From the NCBI GenBank assembly GCA_001627925.1, contig LUQC01000102.1, forward strand, positions 2,152 to 66,151: a DNA stretch of 64,000 bases, given 5' to 3'. Under the pieces are notes generated by a model. The model was given only the letters and a program-made list of their open reading frames with translations, ran no database searches and was not told where the DNA came from. Both the position numbers and the translations under genes were made by a program. Each line of letters starts with the position of its first letter. Position 1 is the first letter of the stretch. Below, in pieces: positions 39,580-53,038 of this stretch. This DNA is from Rhodobacteraceae bacterium REDSEA-S34_B6. GTDB taxonomy: Bacteria > Pseudomonadota > Alphaproteobacteria > Rhodobacterales > Rhodobacteraceae.

Positions 39580-40800
39580 TTAAGACAGCAGATCACGAGC
39601 CAGCTCTAAACCCGACAGTAATTTGTCAACTTCCTGTTTAGTATTATAAAAGGCAAATGACGCCCTGCATGATGCATTAATTCCCATGTGATGCATCAAA
39701 GGACCCGCACAATGTTGACCGGCCCTAACTGCAATGCCTTGCTTGTCTAGGATGGTAGAAATGTCATGAGCGTGAGCAGAGCCTTCCAAAGTAAAGGCAA
39801 AGATTGCCCCTTTCTTACTCGGCTTACCTTGTATATTTAACCAATTTAAACCTTCCAATTTTTGACGCGCGTAGAGTGTTAACTCGCTTTCATACGTTTC
39901 AATATTATCCATACCAATACTCATCATGTATTCCAAAGCGACACCAAAACCGATGGTCTGGACAATGCCTGGAGTACCAGCTTCAAACTTCATTGGTGGA
40001 TCATTATAAATTACTTTATCCGTAAAAACGTCCTTAATCATATCTCCACCACCAATGAATGGTCGCATTGTTTTTTGAATTTCTTGTTTAATATAAATTG
40101 CACCTGAACCTGAGGGACCACATAATTTATGCCCCGTGATTGCGTAAAAATCACATCCTATATCTTTAACATTGACTGACATGTGAACCGCAGCTTGCGA
40201 GCCGTCTACCAAGGATACAATTCCTCGCTTTCGTGCTTCATGACATATCGTTTTGACATCAACTACAGTTCCTAAAACATTAGACATATGCGTTATTGCA
40301 ACCAATTTGGTTTTATCAGAAAACTGATCAATAATAGCCTGTGGGTCGAGATTGCCACTCGCATCACAATCAACCCATTTGATTTTCACACCGAAGCGCT
40401 CACGCAAAAAATGCCAAGGAACTATGTTAGCATGATGCTCCATAATACTCAAAATGATTTCATCATCATTTTTTAGATGCCCCATTGCCCATGCATAAGC
40501 CGCAAGGTTAATGCCCTCTGTTGTTCCAGATGTGAACACTATCTCTTCTTCATGCTCAGCACGCAAAAATTTTTGTACAATAGATCGGACATTCTCATAG
40601 TTATCAGTCGCTAAATTTGAAAGATAATGGAGTCCTCTATGAACATTGGAATACTCGTTTGAATATGCGTTCGAAATAGCATCAATTACTACCTTAGGTT
40701 TTTGAGAGGAAGCACCGTTATCTAAATATACTAATTGCTTCCCGTTAACTTCCCGCGAGAGTATTGGAAATTCTGATCGTAATTTGTTTACGTTTATCAT
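39580..40800 (-). CDS. sufS: Cysteine desulfurase SufS
   Basis: PLP enzyme that mobilises sulfur from cysteine for Fe-S assembly by the Suf system. The N-terminal family motif is YLDNGASSQKP, with FTSGTTEGINLAAYAW, the PLP lysine in AITGHKLCGPSG and the active-site cysteine in RAGQHCAGPLMHHMG (group II, SufS type). Length is 406 residues. It is the last gene of the suf operon and overlaps the second Yip1-family gene by 4 bases. Confidence 0.95.
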   Translation of the reverse strand: MINVNKLRSEFPILSREVNGKQLVYLDNGASSQKPKVVIDAISNAYSNEYSNVHRGLHYLSNLATDNYENVRSIVQKFLRAEHEEEIVFTSGTTEGINLAAYAWAMGHLKNDDEIILSIMEHHANIVPWHFLRERFGVKIKWVDCDASGNLDPQAIIDQFSDKTKLVAITHMSNVLGTVVDVKTICHEARKRGIVSLVDGSQAAVHMSVNVKDIGCDFYAITGHKLCGPSGSGAIYIKQEIQKTMRPFIGGGDMIKDVFTDKVIYNDPPMKFEAGTPGIVQTIGFGVALEYMMSIGMDNIETYESELTLYARQKLEGLNWLNIQGKPSKKGAIFAFTLEGSAHAHDISTILDKQGIAVRAGQHCAGPLMHHMGINASCRASFAFYNTKQEVDKLLSGLELARDLLS

Positions 40801-41366
40801 GATAACATCCTGTTTATAACACCGCCAAAAATTATGCCGGTGCCCAAAAAGGCAAATAGAGACGCTAATATAACTATAATACCGGACATCAGCAAACTCG
40901 TTAATCCATGCGCTGCCTTAACAAATGAAATAAGAATGTAGACTCCCAAAATCACAAATCCAATTTGCACAATCCCCGCAAGTGGGGCCAGAATAAATAG
41001 CACACCAACCACTATCGTTTGAAAGATTACTTGTAATACCTGGGTCCAAGCCATAACTGACAAAATCTGACCGAAATTTGCTACGCCGCCAAACCAAGCG
41101 CCACCTCTAGAAATAAAAAATGCTGCTAAGTAAGAGGATATAAGTACTATAATCGCTGTGCTGATTGGCGAAAACATTAATCCATTTGCCCGGATCTCTT
41201 CCGAAACATCAGGGTTTGGGATAAAAGCTAAAATTGTGCTTATACAAGTCGCTGCAGTCAGAACCATAGCAGCTACTGTCAAGCTCCAACCTTTCGAAAA
41301 TAGAATGCTCGTTGCTTCTTCAGGATTTAAAATGCTTATTTTAGCCAGGTAATAAATCTGGTTCAC
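40797..41366 (-). CDS. Yip1-family membrane protein in suf operon
   Basis: A 189-residue integral membrane protein with about five hydrophobic segments and the YIP1-like pattern GGAWFGGVANFGQILSVMAWTQVLQ. It overlaps both neighbours by 4 bases (sufS downstream, another Yip1-like gene upstream), so it is tightly coupled to the suf operon. Its role in Fe-S assembly is unknown. Confidence 0.78.
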   Translation of the reverse strand: MNQIYYLAKISILNPEEATSILFSKGWSLTVAAMVLTAATCISTILAFIPNPDVSEEIRANGLMFSPISTAIIVLISSYLAAFFISRGGAWFGGVANFGQILSVMAWTQVLQVIFQTIVVGVLFILAPLAGIVQIGFVILGVYILISFVKAAHGLTSLLMSGIIVILASLFAFLGTGIIFGGVINRMLS

Positions 41367-41854
41367 TGAGCAGCACCCCCAACCTTAGCACGAACCACTG
41401 CGCAAAGGATAAAATAAGATAGAGCCATAAACCAAAAAAACCCAACAACATTTTCGGCAGTTCCGCTACCTAGGAACCCTTTTACGAGTCCGAAAAGCAT
41501 CATCATTGGGGTTGCCGCAAAAAACGACCAGAAGAGACCCACTCTGATTTGTCCAGATGTCTTACCACCCCCTAATACTCTGTGCAGAAAGTACACTAAT
41601 ATGGCAACGCAATATAATAAAAGTGGTGCGATCAACAACCAAGCCAACAAACTTGCAGCTAAACTAGTTTGTAAATTAAAGTCCTCTAAATGCGCTTGCC
41701 GCGCAAGATACGGCCATTGCGCAACGTAAGTAAGAAAGCATGCACCCATTAAATAACCTAGAGATGTTGCCTCATTGGTTGGGCGACCATACATGAACTC
41801 AAATGCTTTTGAGGGTGATCGATAGGTATATATAAGATTTGAAACTACAGACAT
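41363..41854 (-). CDS. Yip1-family membrane protein in suf operon
   Basis: Integral membrane protein of about 163 residues with four to five hydrophobic helices and the segment RSPSKAFEFMYGRPTNEATSLGYLMGA near the N-terminus, followed by VYFLHRVLGGGKT. I start at the ATG at 41854, which lies just past the sufD stop; an in-frame start 24 bases earlier would overlap sufD. It overlaps the next Yip1-like gene by 4 bases. Function unknown, but its place between sufD and sufS is typical of a Suf-linked accessory gene in this group. Confidence 0.75.
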   Translation of the reverse strand: MSVVSNLIYTYRSPSKAFEFMYGRPTNEATSLGYLMGACFLTYVAQWPYLARQAHLEDFNLQTSLAASLLAWLLIAPLLLYCVAILVYFLHRVLGGGKTSGQIRVGLFWSFFAATPMMMLFGLVKGFLGSGTAENVVGFFWFMALSYFILCAVVRAKVGGAAQ

Positions 41855-41856
41855 TA

Positions 41857-43137
41857 TTATCGACGCCGTTCTAACCAACCACTTAAAAGCTCAAGTATAA
41901 CATCTTTTAAATTATAGTTATCAATTTCGTCGACTGCCTCTGCTAAGAAGGCCATTGTAAGCATATCTATTGCAACTGGTTTCGAAATACCTCTAGACGT
42001 AAGATAAAATAAGGCGTCTTCGTCAATTGCACCAGAAGTAGAACCGTGTGAGCAGGCAACATCATCTGCGTATATTTCAAGTTCTGGCTTTGCTAAGAAC
42101 TGACTGTCCTCATCCAAAAGTAACGACTGACTAATTTGATACCCATCTGTTTTCTGAGCATCTGGTTTTACAAGAATCTTCCCTTGAAATACCCCAGTAG
42201 CACCATTCCTCAAAACTTTCTTGAAAACCTGCCTACTCTCTGAGCCGACCGCATCATGAGTTACAAATACAGTATCATCGTGATGGAAATCACCGTCACC
42301 TACGCAAGCACCAGAAATATGTGCCATTGCATCGTCGCCGGCAATATTAAGGAAACACTCATTTCTAGTTAAAATACCATTTACAGTAAGAGTGAAAGAC
42401 TTAAGTGTTGAACCTCTACTTAGTTCGCCAAAGATATGAGTGGCAGCTCGGCGCTCATGATCCCGACCTAGAACTCGAATATGGTTGAACTTTGCATCCT
42501 CGTTAACTTCAACTTCTAATACCTGGTTTAAACGTGCAGCAGCTGCTCCACTTTCAAGCAATGTCAACTCAGCATTGCTATCAATTTTGATGACATGGTG
42601 GAGAATTACATCTGAATATTCATCTTCATGTTCGTAAATAATGTTTATTGGGCACTCAACCCGATCCGTTACATGGATAATAAGACCTTCATTTGCATAA
42701 GCTGTGTTATAGGCGGCCAAAGGACGAGAAACAGACAGTTGACCTAACTTTTCATATCTGCCGTACAGCTCTTTAGCCCAATGCAAATCTAATTTTTTTA
42801 TAGTATCTAACCGCTCTATTGAGAGACCGGAAAGTATAAATTCATCCGATTTTTCGGGAGAAAACTTACCATCAACAAAAACAATTTTAAGTGGGCTTAC
42901 ACTTTTAAAAATATCACTCTCATGCTCAGGTAAAAGTGATGCTTTCTCAACTATTTTATTCGTTAAGGTTTTTGGGTTTGTGTATTTCCAGTATTCATCA
43001 CGAACAGTCGGCAAACCTGATTTTGCTAATCGTTCAAAAGCGTCAATGCGCGCCTTGGCACTCCAACCAGAATTTAAAACAGTTGATTTTTTAATTTCAA
43101 GTTCTGCGTCGTTATTATGCTTTGACAGTTCCATCAA
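41857..43137 (-). CDS. sufD: Fe-S cluster assembly protein SufD
   Basis: Scaffold subunit of the SufBCD complex. The C-terminal half has the beta-helix core with FQGKILVKPDAQKTDGYQ and the conserved DDVACSHGSTSGAIDEDALFYL-type motif (the key His is in CSHGST). Length of 426 residues is normal. It overlaps sufC by 4 bases and is followed within the operon by two membrane proteins. Confidence 0.95.
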   Translation of the reverse strand: MMELSKHNNDAELEIKKSTVLNSGWSAKARIDAFERLAKSGLPTVRDEYWKYTNPKTLTNKIVEKASLLPEHESDIFKSVSPLKIVFVDGKFSPEKSDEFILSGLSIERLDTIKKLDLHWAKELYGRYEKLGQLSVSRPLAAYNTAYANEGLIIHVTDRVECPINIIYEHEDEYSDVILHHVIKIDSNAELTLLESGAAAARLNQVLEVEVNEDAKFNHIRVLGRDHERRAATHIFGELSRGSTLKSFTLTVNGILTRNECFLNIAGDDAMAHISGACVGDGDFHHDDTVFVTHDAVGSESRQVFKKVLRNGATGVFQGKILVKPDAQKTDGYQISQSLLLDEDSQFLAKPELEIYADDVACSHGSTSGAIDEDALFYLTSRGISKPVAIDMLTMAFLAEAVDEIDNYNLKDVILELLSGWLERRR

Positions 43138-43889
43138 GAAGCCTCGTCCAATAAGTCTGAATAACCATTATTCTCAACTTCAAGGGCTAGCTCTGGACCA
43201 CCACTTTTAATAATCTTACCATCTGCCATAATGTGCACTACGTCAGGTTTGATATGATCTAATAAGCGTTGGTAATGTGTTATTACCAAAAATCCTCTTC
43301 CTTCATTACGAAGAGCGTTGACTCCGTTAGCAACTAGTTTCATTGCGTCCACATCAAGCCCTGAGTCTGTTTCATCAAGAATACAAATTTTAGGCTCAAG
43401 CATAGCCATTTGTAGAATTTCATTGCGTTTTTTTTCACCACCCGAAAATCCAACATTCACAGGCCGTTTTAACATATCAGAGTCAATTTTTAACGTAGCG
43501 GCTTTTTCTCTAACCAGACGCAAAAAATCGGTCGCGCTGATCTCATCTTCACCGCGGGCTTTCCGTTGCGCATTTAAAGCTGTTCGCAAAAACGTCATAT
43601 TGCCCACGCCCGGAATTTCAATAGGATACTGGAATGCCAAAAAGAGACCAAGAGCAGCCCTTTCTTCGGGTTCCAAATCCATTATATTATCGCCATTTAA
43701 CTCAACCGAGCCATCCGTCACATTATAGCCCTCTTTACCAGAAAGCACATAAGAAAGCGTGGACTTTCCAGACCCATTTGGCCCCATAATGGCGTGAACC
43801 GTACCCGCGTCCACAGTTAAATCCACTCCCTTCAAAATTTCCTTATCTTCATCTTCCAAAGAAACGTGTAAATTATTAATTTTTAACAT
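43134..43889 (-). CDS. sufC: Fe-S cluster assembly ATPase SufC
   Basis: ABC-type ATPase of the SufBCD scaffold, 251 residues. Walker A is GPNGSGKST, the Q-loop FLAFQYPIEIPG, the signature FSGGEKKRNEI (FSGGE form typical of SufC) and Walker B ICILDETDSGLDVD, with switch His in FLVITHYQRLLDHI. It lies between sufB (about 60 bases upstream) and sufD (4-base overlap). Confidence 0.97.
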   Translation of the reverse strand: MLKINNLHVSLEDEDKEILKGVDLTVDAGTVHAIMGPNGSGKSTLSYVLSGKEGYNVTDGSVELNGDNIMDLEPEERAALGLFLAFQYPIEIPGVGNMTFLRTALNAQRKARGEDEISATDFLRLVREKAATLKIDSDMLKRPVNVGFSGGEKKRNEILQMAMLEPKICILDETDSGLDVDAMKLVANGVNALRNEGRGFLVITHYQRLLDHIKPDVVHIMADGKIIKSGGPELALEVENNGYSDLLDEAS

Positions 43890-43951: not shown

Positions 43952-45472
43952 TTACCCAACTGATCCCTCGAGGGATATTGCAACAAGTTGCTGAGCTTCC
44001 ATCGCAAATTCCATCGGCAATGCCTGCAAAACATCTTTGCAAAAGCCATTAACCACTAAGGCTACTGCTTCTTCCTCACCCATGCCTCTTTGCCTACAAT
44101 AGAAAAGCTGATCGTCATCGACTTTCGAAGTCGTGGCTTCATGTTCTACTCGAGAAGAATTATTTTTAACCTCAATGTATGGAACGGTGTGAGCACCACA
44201 CTTGTCACCTATTAGAAGACTATCACATTGAGTATAATTCCTACTATTTTTTGCCCTAGGGTGCATATTAACCTGACCTCTATAGGTATTTTGAGCCACA
44301 CCGGCCGAGATTCCCTTAGATACGATGCGAGACTTAGTATTTTTGCCAAGATGCAGCATCTTGGTACCAGTATCGGCCTGCTGATGATTGTTCGCGATAG
44401 CAATCGAGTAGAATTCACCCTGACTTTCATCACCCCTTAATATGCAGCTCGGGTATTTCCAAGTGACGGCCGACCCCGTTTCGACCTGCGTCCACATCAC
44501 CTTTGCTCTGTCACCCCGACAGTCAGCCCTCTTTGTAACAAAGTTGTAAATGCCACCATTTCCATTTTCGTCGCCTGGAAACCAATTTTGAACGGTTGAA
44601 TACTTAACTTCAGCGTCTTCTTCCACTACTATTTCAACAACTGCGGCGTGTAGCTGAGCCGTATCTCTTTTCGGCGCGGTACACCCTTCTAGGTATGAGA
44701 CATATGACCCTTTATCTGCAATTATTAAAGTTCTCTCAAATTGCCCAGTATTCTCGGCATTGATACGAAAATATGTTGATAATTCCATGGGGCATTTAAC
44801 TCCCGGAGGAATGTAAACAAATGAACCATCAGAGAAGACAGCACTGTTCAAAGTTGCGTAAAAATTATCAGAAACAGGAACTACTGAACCTAAATATTTT
44901 TTAACTAAGTCCGGATGTTCCTTAATAGCCTCAGAAATGGAGCAAAATATTACTCCAGCTTTCTTTAATTCAGACTTGAAAGTTGTACCTACTGAAACGC
45001 TGTCAAAAACAGCATCAACCGCAACCTTTCTCTCACCATCAGGTTTGTCTGCTGCACCTTCTACTCCAGCAAGTATCATCTGTTCTTTTAAAGGAATCCC
45101 CAGCTTCTCGTACGTTGCCAAAAGCTTAGGATCAACCTCATCGAGAGATTTTGGTTTTTCAACCATAGATTTTGGTCTTGCGTAGTAGTATTGATCCTGA
45201 AAATCAATTTCCGGATAATCTACCATAGCCCATTTAGGCTCTGTCATTTTTTTCCATCGTTCTAAAGCTTCTAATCGCCAGCTAGTCATCCATTCGGGTT
45301 CTGAATTTTTTTCCGATATCAGCTTTACAATGTCTTCATTTACGCCTTTTGGAGCATACTCCATTTCGATGTCAGTATCCCAACCATACTTGTAAGTACT
45401 GACCTCCTTTACAGCATCTATTGTTTCCTGATCGACGCCGTCTTTAACCTGTAATGTATCCCCTGCTTCCAT
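43952..45472 (-). CDS. sufB: Fe-S cluster assembly protein SufB
   Basis: Main scaffold subunit of SufBCD, about 506 residues. Recognisable stretches are [20 protein letters not shown] near the N-terminus, [18 protein letters not shown], and the C-terminal [22 protein letters not shown] with [20 protein letters not shown]. Translation probably starts at the third codon of the open frame, the ATG at 45472, because AGGAG lies 6 bases before it and directly abuts the first ATG at 45478. It follows the iscS-like gene by a few bases. Confidence 0.96.
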
Positions 45473-45485
45473 AACCATCTCCTAA

Positions 45486-46532
45486 TTAAGCACTTCTTCG
45501 GCTTATAAATTTCTTACCTGCTTTACAGTATGCTCCTACAAAGCCATTTATGTCTTCAATAGTTGTACTCACACCTAAACTAACCCTTAGAGCGCTTTTT
45601 GATTGTTCATCATCATAACCCATGCTTTGCAAGACAGCCGATCCCTTGACTTTTCCGCTGGAACAAGCAGATCCGGCAGATACTGCGTATCCAGCCAAAT
45701 CTAACTGCATTACCTGAGTTTCACCTTGCCATCCGGCATTAATTATTAAGCTAGTATTAGGTAATCGCTTTGTCCCTCTCCCAACAAAAATAGTTTCGTT
45801 AAAAGATTCTTCAATCGAATTTTCTAGAATGTTTCTAAGTTCTTCAATACGGCTCCAAACACCTTTCTCTAAATCAACCAACGCTGCTGCAGCAGCGGCA
45901 GCCATACCTACCGCGCCGACAATATTTTCTGTCCCAGATCTTCTACCCATTTCTTGACCGCCACCAACTACTAGCGGTGACAAAGGTATATTATCCTCCA
46001 ATAAAAGAGCACCAACCCCTTTTGGACCTCCAAACTTATGTGCAGAAACGATTGCTCTTTTTGCTCCTAGCCATTCGAATGAAAACGGTATTTTTCCAAT
46101 TGCTTGCGTCACATCACTTAAAAAAATATCTCTGGGTAAATCTTGAATAATGCCGGTCTCCGAATTAGCCAATTGAACAGCAGACGTTAAAGGATCATCA
46201 ATTAAGACTTGACCCGAACGAAAAGTACTCAAAGTTATTTCGCACAAATTCTTCACGGCATCATGTTCAACCTCAGAACACCTTATTTTATGAGCGTTTA
46301 GAGCCAACGAAGCAGCCTCTGTAGACCCAGATGTAAAGACAATAGATTGGGGCTTACAGCCAAGTGAGCCAGCAAGACTATCTCGAGCATTTTCTAACAA
46401 AGATTTCGCCATGCGACCCTCAAAGTGAACAGATGAAGGATTACCTAAAACATTCATCGCATCAAGCATTGCCCTGCTCGCTTCTGGTCTCAAATCGGTA
46501 GTAGAATTATGATCTAAATATACTCTTTGCAT
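45486..46532 (-). CDS. Cysteine desulfurase, NifS/IscS type
   Basis: A PLP cysteine desulfurase of group I (348 residues). The N-terminal motif is YLDHNSTTDLRPEA; the PLP lysine is in SAHKFGGPKGVGAL and the active-site loop is VSAGSACSSGKVKGSAVL. It is distinct from the SufS (group II) at the other end of the operon, so the operon encodes two sulfur donors. It lies between iscR and sufB on the same strand. Confidence 0.92.
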   Translation of the reverse strand: MQRVYLDHNSTTDLRPEASRAMLDAMNVLGNPSSVHFEGRMAKSLLENARDSLAGSLGCKPQSIVFTSGSTEAASLALNAHKIRCSEVEHDAVKNLCEITLSTFRSGQVLIDDPLTSAVQLANSETGIIQDLPRDIFLSDVTQAIGKIPFSFEWLGAKRAIVSAHKFGGPKGVGALLLEDNIPLSPLVVGGGQEMGRRSGTENIVGAVGMAAAAAAALVDLEKGVWSRIEELRNILENSIEESFNETIFVGRGTKRLPNTSLIINAGWQGETQVMQLDLAGYAVSAGSACSSGKVKGSAVLQSMGYDDEQSKSALRVSLGVSTTIEDINGFVGAYCKAGKKFISRRSA

Positions 46533-46575: not shown

Positions 46576-47040
46576 TCAATCTGCTGGTTCTACGATAGAG
46601 ATTAGGTCTGGAACAGCTGGGCAAGGAGCCAATTCATTTTCAATTACATCTGAAAGTCTCGTTTGATGTAAAAATACATAAACATGTGCACTTAAACCCT
46701 CCCATAGCCTATTGGACAAAGACTGTGCTTTACTGCCAGAAACAGCGCCCTTGGCCCCTGCTCCGGTATGCAAAGCGTTCAACGACTCATCAACCGCCTC
46801 TAACACATCTGAAACTCTAATTTCATGAACAGTTTTACCCAATTTGTAACCACCGCCGGGACCGCGAGAAGCAATAACTAACTCTGCCCGTCGAAGTTTT
46901 ACGAATAGTTGTTCAAGATAGGCTAAGGAAATCTTCTGCCTCTTAGAAATATCTGACAGAGTTACTAAGTCAGAACCACCGTGGAGAGCAATATCGCATA
47001 ATGCTACCATCGCGTAACGCCCTTTCGTGCTTAGCTTCAT
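46576..47040 (-). CDS. iscR: Rrf2-family regulator, rhodobacterial IscR type
   Basis: First gene of the suf operon. The Rrf2 winged-helix is clear from MKLSTKGRYAMVALCDIAL, ISLAYLEQLFVKLRRAELV and ASRGPGGGYKLG. Enterobacterial IscR binds a 2Fe-2S cluster with three cysteines in the linker; here that region (ALHTGAGAKGAVSGSKAQSL) has none. The only cysteines are near the N-terminus and in APCPAVPDL. This matches the rhodobacterial IscR form, for which an unusual cluster ligation has been proposed. The promoter is overlapped by an Irr-type palindrome. Confidence 0.93.
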   Translation of the reverse strand: MKLSTKGRYAMVALCDIALHGGSDLVTLSDISKRQKISLAYLEQLFVKLRRAELVIASRGPGGGYKLGKTVHEIRVSDVLEAVDESLNALHTGAGAKGAVSGSKAQSLSNRLWEGLSAHVYVFLHQTRLSDVIENELAPCPAVPDLISIVEPAD

Positions 47041-47116
47041 CGACCGGCCTTTCTAAATTCATTGACGTTAACTCAAACAACGCTTAAGTGCACTGTAAGA
47101 TGGCGCATCAGTCTAG

Positions 47117-47133
47117 TTTAGAATAATTCTAAA
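47117..47133. promoter_or_regulatory. Irr box (iron control element) ahead of iscR-suf operon
   Basis: TTTAGAATAATTCTAAA is a perfect palindrome (8-base arms around a central A) and fits the alphaproteobacterial ICE/Irr-box pattern TTTAGAA-N3-TTCTAAA. It lies 77 bases upstream of the iscR start codon and covers the -10 element of the promoter described separately. The divergent hydrolase gene begins 54 bases to the right. Confidence 0.85.
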
Positions 47134-47154
47134 GTTTATGCCGAACACTGTCAA
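47126..47154 (-). promoter_or_regulatory. Sigma-70-type promoter of the iscR-suf operon
   Basis: On the minus strand TTGACA (47154-47149) is followed after exactly 17 bases by TAGAAT (47131-47126). The -35 is a perfect consensus and the -10 matches 5 of 6 positions. The -10 lies inside the Irr palindrome, so a bound regulator would block polymerase. Confidence 0.72.
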
Positions 47155-47186
47155 CGTAATAGAACGCTTATTTGGAGTATTAGTGT

Positions 47187-47840
47187 ATGCCTGAGGTAAT
47201 TTTTCCCGGACCTGAAGGGCGTCTCGAGGGACGTTACCACCCACAAAAGGATAGGGATGCCCCAATCGCTATTGTATTGCACCCTCACCCACAGTTTGGG
47301 GGCACGATGAACAATAAGCTTGTCTATAACTTGCACTATACATTTTACAATATGGGTTTTACGGTCTTAAGATTTAACTTCAGAGGCGTTGGCCGTTCTC
47401 AGGGAGAATATGACCAAGGCGTGGGAGAGTTATCGGACGCAGCCTCTGCCCTAGACTACTTGCAGTCAATGAATAACAATTCGAAACATTGCTGGGTTGC
47501 TGGATTTAGTTTCGGTGCATGGATAGGGATGCAATTATTAATGCGCAGACCTGAAATAACTGGTTTTATATCAGTGTCTCCGCCCGCAAACATGTATGAT
47601 TTTTCTTTTCTAGCTCCCTGCCCATCCTCAGGGATGATTATAAACGGCGCAGCTGACAGAATTGCCCCACCTGCAGCAACTGTTGAGCTAGTCGAAAAAC
47701 TAAGAGAACAGCGCGGTATTACAGTAACGCATAATGAAATGGAGGGAGCAGGCCATTTCTTTGAAGATCCTTATATGGACGAAATGTTAGACACAGTAAC
47801 CTCGTACGTTAAAAGACGTTTAACTGAGACTACACGTTGA
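47187..47840 (+). CDS. Alpha/beta hydrolase
   Basis: Cytoplasmic serine hydrolase fold of 217 residues. The oxyanion region is HPHPQFGGTMNN, the nucleophile elbow GFSFGAWIG (about residue 113), the acid is in GAADRIAPP and the His in GAGHFFEDP. This pattern is that of the COG2945 group of short hydrolases; the substrate is unknown. It is divergent from the iscR-suf operon and converges with mfd. Confidence 0.88.
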   Translation: MPEVIFPGPEGRLEGRYHPQKDRDAPIAIVLHPHPQFGGTMNNKLVYNLHYTFYNMGFTVLRFNFRGVGRSQGEYDQGVGELSDAASALDYLQSMNNNSKHCWVAGFSFGAWIGMQLLMRRPEITGFISVSPPANMYDFSFLAPCPSSGMIINGAADRIAPPAATVELVEKLREQRGITVTHNEMEGAGHFFEDPYMDEMLDTVTSYVKRRLTETTR

Positions 47841-52039: not shown

Positions 52040-53038
52040 ATGCATCTTCGACAGACACCTTATCCTAAAACTCGACATAGACGTTTAAGAAAATCTCCTG
52101 AAATTAGAGGCTTATCGCGAGAAAATAAACTTAGTGTTGAGGATTTGATTTGGCCAATATTTGTTTGCGAGGGTAAAAACCTTGAGGTCCCCGTCGAGTC
52201 TATGCCGGGCGTTTTTAGATATAGTGTAGACCTTTTAGTCGAAAAAGCTAAACTTGCAGCAGATTTGGGTATTCCTGCTATATGTATATTTCCATACACA
52301 GATCCAAAGCTCAAAACCAAGGACTGTGCTGAAGCTTGGAATCCAGAAAACCTATCCAATAAGGCCACGAGGGCAATAAAGAAGGCGGTACCAAATATAG
52401 CTGTAATGACTGATGTCGCTTTGGATCCATATAGTATAGACGGACATGATGGGTTTGTAGAAAATGGTCGTATCGTTAACGATAAAACCGTTGAGGCGTT
52501 AGTAAAACAGGCACTATCTCAAGCAAAAGCAGGCGCAGATATAATCGGCCCGTCAGACATGATGGATGGGAGAATTTCAGCGATACGGACTGCTTTAGAA
52601 ACGGAAGGATTTCATGATGTAATTTTACTTTCTTATGCTGCCAAATATGCAAGTGGTTTTTATGGCCCATTCAGAGATGCAGTTGGTGCTTCCGGGGCAC
52701 TCAAGGGAGATAAAAGCACCTATCAAATGGATCCAGCCAACGGAGAAGAAGCACTCCGAACAATAGCGCGAGATCTTGATGAAGGCGCAGACATGATTAT
52801 GATTAAACCTGGAATGCCTTACTTGGACATTTGTAGGCGAGCAAAGGATATGTTTGGAGCTCCAACATTTGCTTACCAAGTTTCAGGAGAGTATTCGATG
52901 CTTCAAGCGGCCATAAAGAATGGTTGGCTCAACGGGAATAAGGTTATTATGGAAAGTCTATACTGCTTCAAAAGAGCAGGATGTGATGGTATTTTGACTT
53001 ATTTTGCCCCAATAGCTGCCAAAGAGCTTAATAATTAA
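52040..53038 (+). CDS. hemB: Delta-aminolevulinic acid dehydratase (porphobilinogen synthase)
   Basis: Condenses two aminolevulinate molecules to porphobilinogen in haem/tetrapyrrole synthesis. Active-site lysines are visible in LSYAAKYASGFYGPFRDAVG and MIMIKPGMPYLD. The metal-site loop around DVALDPYSIDGHDG lacks the zinc-type cysteine triad, so the enzyme should be the magnesium-dependent form, as in other alphaproteobacteria. The ATG at 52040 follows AGAGGA; an ATG 4 bases earlier is out of frame. Confidence 0.96.
   Translation: MHLRQTPYPKTRHRRLRKSPEIRGLSRENKLSVEDLIWPIFVCEGKNLEVPVESMPGVFRYSVDLLVEKAKLAADLGIPAICIFPYTDPKLKTKDCAEAWNPENLSNKATRAIKKAVPNIAVMTDVALDPYSIDGHDGFVENGRIVNDKTVEALVKQALSQAKAGADIIGPSDMMDGRISAIRTALETEGFHDVILLSYAAKYASGFYGPFRDAVGASGALKGDKSTYQMDPANGEEALRTIARDLDEGADMIMIKPGMPYLDICRRAKDMFGAPTFAYQVSGEYSMLQAAIKNGWLNGNKVIMESLYCFKRAGCDGILTYFAPIAAKELNN

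Follow-up and report, generated by a model that had tools for sequence, protein, structure and literature searches.

A putative Irr operator over the -10 element of the iscR-iscS-suf promoter in a Rhodobacteraceae bacterium, and its conservation across the family

Do haem and iron status, through Irr, set the expression of Fe-S cluster assembly genes in this marine Rhodobacteraceae bacterium, as well as Fe-S status through IscR? The question is raised by a 17-bp perfect palindrome, TTTAGAATAATTCTAAA (47117-47133), upstream of an iscR-iscS-suf operon in the window, by which we mean the whole stretch of 64,000 nucleotides that was analysed. The host genome is AT-rich, 2.41 Mb in size and 95.5% complete. 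Judged by iscR, its closest named relatives are the isolates AH-326-E22 (94% IscR identity) and AG-447-P15 (91%). In our view the palindrome is probably an Irr operator at P2, the operon's main promoter, through which Irr would repress P2 when haem or iron is low.

The palindrome has the form of an Irr box (iron control element, ICE) and is embedded in a promoter. On the minus strand, a -35 element TTGACA (47154-47149) is followed, after 17 nt, by a -10 element TAGAAT (47131-47126) that lies wholly within the palindrome, exactly as the sequence-only reading had described. That reading called the promoter near-consensus, and a promoter scan bears this out with an 11/12 match to the sigma-70 consensus, although by itself this match is not significant, as shuffles lead one to expect 0.7. 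P2 is the sole sigma-70-like promoter within 46900-47300, and it carries the TTAGAA-N3-TTCTAA palindrome by which an Irr-regulated promoter is recognised. From the geometry of P2 in R. sphaeroides, where the Irr box spans -13 to +1 (Nie et al. 2019, PMC6956336), transcription would start near 47118. The exact 15-bp core of the palindrome, TTAGAANNNTTCTAA, occurs once in the 64-kb window and four times across the 2.41-Mb genome. With up to one mismatch, Irr boxes are found genome-wide at chance level (21 sites vs 22 for the reversed control pattern), and these one-mismatch matches are left uninterpreted except for a site in iscS, which rests on conservation. A divergent alpha/beta-hydrolase-like gene (47187-47840, plus strand; ORF and profile scan) starts 53 bp from the box. 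We rejected a shared use of the box by a promoter of this gene, as the plus strand has neither a good -35 element nor a good promoter.

Downstream of P2 and all on the minus strand lies the suf operon that had been proposed from the letters of the DNA. It begins with an iscR of the Rhodobacteraceae type (46576-47040; 142 bits to TIGR02010, below the equivalog cut-off of 207.55), followed by an iscS-like cysteine desulfurase gene (45486-46532), sufB (43952-45478) and sufC (43134-43889), the last three assigned from ORFs and a profile scan. The operon continues with sufD (41857-43137; best match TIGR01981, 212.6 bits vs a cut-off of 222), two ORFs for small membrane proteins (41363-41878 and 40797-41366) and a sufS-like cysteine desulfurase gene named from its sequence (39580-40800). 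The IscR has just two cysteines, in CDIALH and, near the C-terminus, in APCPAVP. It does not have the usual three cluster-ligand cysteines, a trait already known of IscR in the Rhodobacteraceae (PMC4618611).

The sequence-only reading depended on the presence of an irr gene, and the genome has one, a single gene (140 aa) with a fabA-like gene in divergent orientation. Its product is a true Irr at equivalog level (192 bits to IrrA NF045678, cut-off 150; 185 bits to Irr NF045677, cut-off 170). The protein carries an HXH motif, HPH within YDHPHFYW. The Irr of R. sphaeroides is also of the HPH type and binds haem (PMC3413700), and by analogy the Irr described here would sense haem through HPH. As in Bradyrhizobium and Rhizobium, the ICE would be read by a haem-responsive Irr, and the position of the box sets repression or activation in those systems (PMC7762939). 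However, Bradyrhizobium Irr is degraded via a haem regulatory motif (PMC7762939), and this Cys-Pro motif is absent from the Irr here, whose only two cysteines are in RLCLAE and TFCDAG. The window also contains, at a distance of 5 kb from suf, a hemB-like gene (delta-aminolevulinate dehydratase; 52040-53038, plus strand). Bradyrhizobium hemB is an Irr target, whereas the hemB-like gene of this genome has no upstream Irr box at up to one mismatch.

The identification of the box as an Irr site is borne out by its conservation and by its distribution with irr. Within 260 bp 5' of iscR, an Irr box matching at least 12 of 14 positions occurs in 75 of 108 Rhodobacteraceae loci, vs 0.1% of Markov shuffles. 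In named loci and relatives, the conserved unit at iscR is TTGAC, 18 nt, TAGAA(C/T)NNTTCTAA, and its TTGAC-N18-TAGA portion is present in 95 of 110 iscR upstream regions. The named loci were chosen by close IscR, so the sample is not even. Of the 12 P2 promoters in the host genus, 11 have a perfect box and one has a box scoring 13/14. Across the family, the composite of -35 element and Irr box is found in 217 of 243 genomes with irr vs 6 of 17 without it, counted in genomes at least 90% complete (Fisher P = 8e-7, the Fisher tests including all genomes). Irr was confirmed in 47 of the 48 named genomes searched, about 30 named genomes lying outside the search, and in most relatives.

Two of the six irr-less genomes with the composite have chance-like matches with one mismatch (G029, G258), a third (G146) has no box at its iscR, and the other three are assemblies of 270-470 contigs. 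Where a good box does occur in an irr-less genome, the assembly is either fragmented (at least 270 contigs) or incomplete (71-76% complete). The absence of irr is uncertain where assemblies are fragmented, and in these genomes the gene may exist but have escaped assembly, a judgement of assembly quality made post hoc with the data already seen. In the better assembled irr-less genomes, there is no box of at least 11/14 at the iscR promoter. The site is thus kept with irr and mostly absent without it, as expected of an Irr-regulated promoter. Since the composite unit follows irr in this way (217/243 vs 6/17), the P2 palindrome is no chance match, and at the level of sequence we regard its conservation as conclusive evidence for an Irr box at P2.

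A second Irr box, overlooked in the sequence-only reading, lies within iscS. This intragenic box, CTTAGAAACATTCTAGA (45823-45839, minus strand; identified from sequence and conservation), is formed by the codons CTT AGA AAC ATT CTA GAA. It sits at the same codons as the P3-type box of the family, the place homologous to the P3 Irr box of R. sphaeroides. Once loci known to lack irr are set apart, an intragenic iscS box of at least 11/14 occurs in 74 of the other 101 vs 3 of 14 irr-less loci (P = 3e-4). Where irr is not known to be absent, the arginine codon at this place is AGA in 74 of 100 loci and the leucine codon is CTA in 74 of 96, counts taken regardless of the presence of a box because counts conditioned on it would be circular. 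Elsewhere in the box-bearing genes, AGA makes up 5.4% of arginine codons and CTA 2.2% of leucine codons. Such rare codons argue for selection on the DNA and not on the protein alone. The pattern points to the iscS box being maintained as DNA, and it is a clear example of an operator kept within a coding sequence.

Outside the genomes known to be irr-less, both regions could be read in 99 loci, 85 of which have a P2 box and 72 a P3 box. The two occur together in 58 loci, P2 alone in 27 and P3 alone in 14, and none of the 99 lacks both. This suggests a rule by which Irr control of Fe-S assembly is near-universal in irr-bearing Rhodobacteraceae, exerted via P2, P3 or both.

The arrangement at P2 is not new. 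Irr and IscR boxes at P2 of R. sphaeroides iscR were predicted by Rodionov (2006), as cited in PMC6956336, and the arrangement is widely conserved in relatives. The proposal made for this locus from the sequence alone therefore stands in that the Irr box is real, with Irr as the strongest candidate for its regulator, but not as a novel prediction. A prediction from 2006 that was unconfirmed at P2 of R. sphaeroides becomes, with the present counts, a testable rule for the family. The R. sphaeroides and present operons share an Irr box over the start region of P2 at the operon start, the place of an IscR box over the -35 element (-36 to -19 in R. sphaeroides; Nie et al. 2019, PMC6956336) and a second Irr box inside iscS. 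In R. sphaeroides, P2 is mainly and strongly controlled by IscR, and its activity in an irr mutant is about twofold lower under iron repletion (PMC6956336). Gel shifts revealed no Irr binding to P2, whereas Irr bound TTAGAAATATTCTAGA in vitro, 5' of P3 and within iscS (PMC6956336). Peuser et al. (2012) likewise found no binding of Irr to an iscR upstream fragment, and without Irr the induction of suf under iron limitation was stronger (PMC3413700).

These negative results seem to concern a degenerate box. One family genome (G138) matches both iscR primer sites of Peuser et al. (2012) at 23/24 and 22/24 positions, and the mismatches coincide with the HincII sites of the primers, HincII being the enzyme used in that study. 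It appears to be R. sphaeroides sequence. Its P2 box, ATTAGAACCATTCCACC, scores just 10/14 vs 14/14 for the box described here, and this degeneracy probably explains why the gel shifts were negative. Because the box is perfect in our genome, the R. sphaeroides result may not transfer to it.

The two systems also differ in the IscR site at P2, which the sequence-only reading did not consider. From 81 family promoters, we derived in the present analysis a consensus for the IscR box over the -35 element, TTGAC-N8-TCRG, or TGA-N9-TCR. It is present in 54 of the 81 promoters and in 11 of the 12 low-GC ones. In the host genus it is absent from all 12 promoters. In the window, the corresponding place, TTGACAGTGTTCGGCATA (47137-47154, minus strand), retains the left half and has lost the right half, reading TGA-N9-GCA, so that the TGA-N9-TCA/G at -36 to -19 that marks an IscR-regulated promoter is absent from P2. 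The right half is GCA in one subclade of the genus and AAA or GAA in the other. The 12 promoters all belong to one lineage and two of them duplicate the same genomes, and the loss of the half-site, confined to one genus, may represent one or two events. IscR binding at P2 looks weakened rather than excluded. A search of the genus for a strict palindrome of the IscR (Iron-Rhodo) type, TTGAC-N7-GTCAA, gave no excess over the reversed control (34 vs 42 sites), an outcome that carries little weight.

With the right half of its box lost, IscR probably contributes less to P2 in the genus, and its share would fall below the R. sphaeroides level. Taken together, the second Irr site and the decayed IscR site suggest a greater importance of Irr here than in R. 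sphaeroides, the one species tested.

How would Irr act at P2? In relatives, haem-free Irr binds the ICE, and haem stops this either by reducing the affinity of Irr or by causing its degradation (PMC7762939). The overlap of the box with the -10 element argues for repression. When haem or iron is low, haem-free Irr would occupy the -10 element and exclude RNA polymerase from P2, and haem, bound at the HPH site, would release Irr from the box. Irr would in this way act as a brake on Fe-S assembly, against derepression of the IscR type, at times when there is too little iron to use. Repression of P2 by Irr at low haem or iron is the best reading, and we infer both the binding and its sign from the layout of the site. 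The Irr box at the R. sphaeroides mbfA promoter likewise lies over the transcription start. Irr binds this promoter and expression is up in an irr mutant (Peuser et al. 2012, PMC3413700), although mbfA encodes a membrane-bound ferritin and not a component of Fe-S assembly.

Other explanations of the palindrome have to be weighed against an Irr operator that acts at P2. Irr might bind the P2 palindrome with little weight, with IscR as the real switch of P2 and the intragenic P3 box as the effective Irr operator. The R. sphaeroides data are of this kind, with a strongly IscR-dependent P2 and Irr bound at P3 and not at P2 (PMC6956336), and the P3 box also exists in this genome. However, R. sphaeroides has a degenerate P2 box where this genome has a perfect one, P2 is kept without P3 in 27 loci, and it is the IscR half-site at P2 that has been lost in the host genus. 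We therefore judge this explanation unlikely.

It is far less plausible still that the palindrome serves another regulator, such as Fur/Mur, IscR itself or OxyR. A palindrome alone names no protein and the genome encodes further Fur-family proteins, yet the presence of the box tracks irr across the family, Irr binds in vitro to a sequence of the same type at P3 of R. sphaeroides, and the IscR box there is a distinct motif at -36 to -19 (PMC6956336). We give hardly any credence to the idea that the palindrome is merely a good -10 region without operator function. In an AT-rich genome TAGAAT is a fair -10 element, and the other half of the palindrome, TTCTAAA, extends into the start region, but in GC-rich relatives TTCTAA is conserved symmetrically beyond the -10 element, with column information of up to 1.8 bits, and irr-less genomes of better assembly have no box at iscR.

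An Irr operator at P2 may be one of several in Fe-S assembly. Besides the P2 site, exact boxes occur upstream of nfu, between katG and an oxyR-like gene, and on a 4-kb contig. The nfu box (L008:1501-1515; G000:C93:10801-10815) lies 4 nt 5' of the TTGACA of nfu (MFIQTESTPNPATLKFLPG). In the genus, 14 of 16 members have it with the same 4-nt gap to TTGAC, and it also occurs in other genera of the family. The pattern of box plus TTGAC occurs in 60 of 295 family genomes, and 20 of 30 inspected matches precede nfu. In the literature searched, we found no mention of an Irr box at nfu. Unlike the P2 box, which lies over the -10 element, the nfu box is 5' of the -35 element, and whether Irr represses or activates can depend on where its box lies (PMC7762939). 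At R. sphaeroides ccpA, the box lies about 40 nt 5' of the start, and deletion of irr raised expression under iron limitation (PMC3413700).

With the iscS and nfu boxes, Irr would be a main iron input to Fe-S assembly. Taking this further, we tentatively propose that Irr took over from IscR as the chief iron signal to Fe-S assembly in this pelagic genus, where P2 has a decayed IscR operator and a perfect Irr operator. Irr would then act at iscR-suf, iscS and nfu, its effects on iscR-suf and on nfu might be opposite in sign, and rare synonymous codons would keep the iscS operator across the family. This broader proposal is possible but doubtful. Beyond the conserved operator at P2, the parts worth following are the box within iscS, the one at nfu and the loss of the IscR half-site.

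The remaining two exact boxes are in other settings. The box between katG and the divergent oxyR-like gene (L006:1501-1515; G000:C14:15425-15439) recurs in three genomes of the genus (G006, G012 and G013) and was not seen in its remaining members. The fourth exact box (L007:304-318) is on a contig of 3951 bases (G000:C60) whose small ORFs are phage-like, and it may be a chance match, or the contig may be foreign to the genome.
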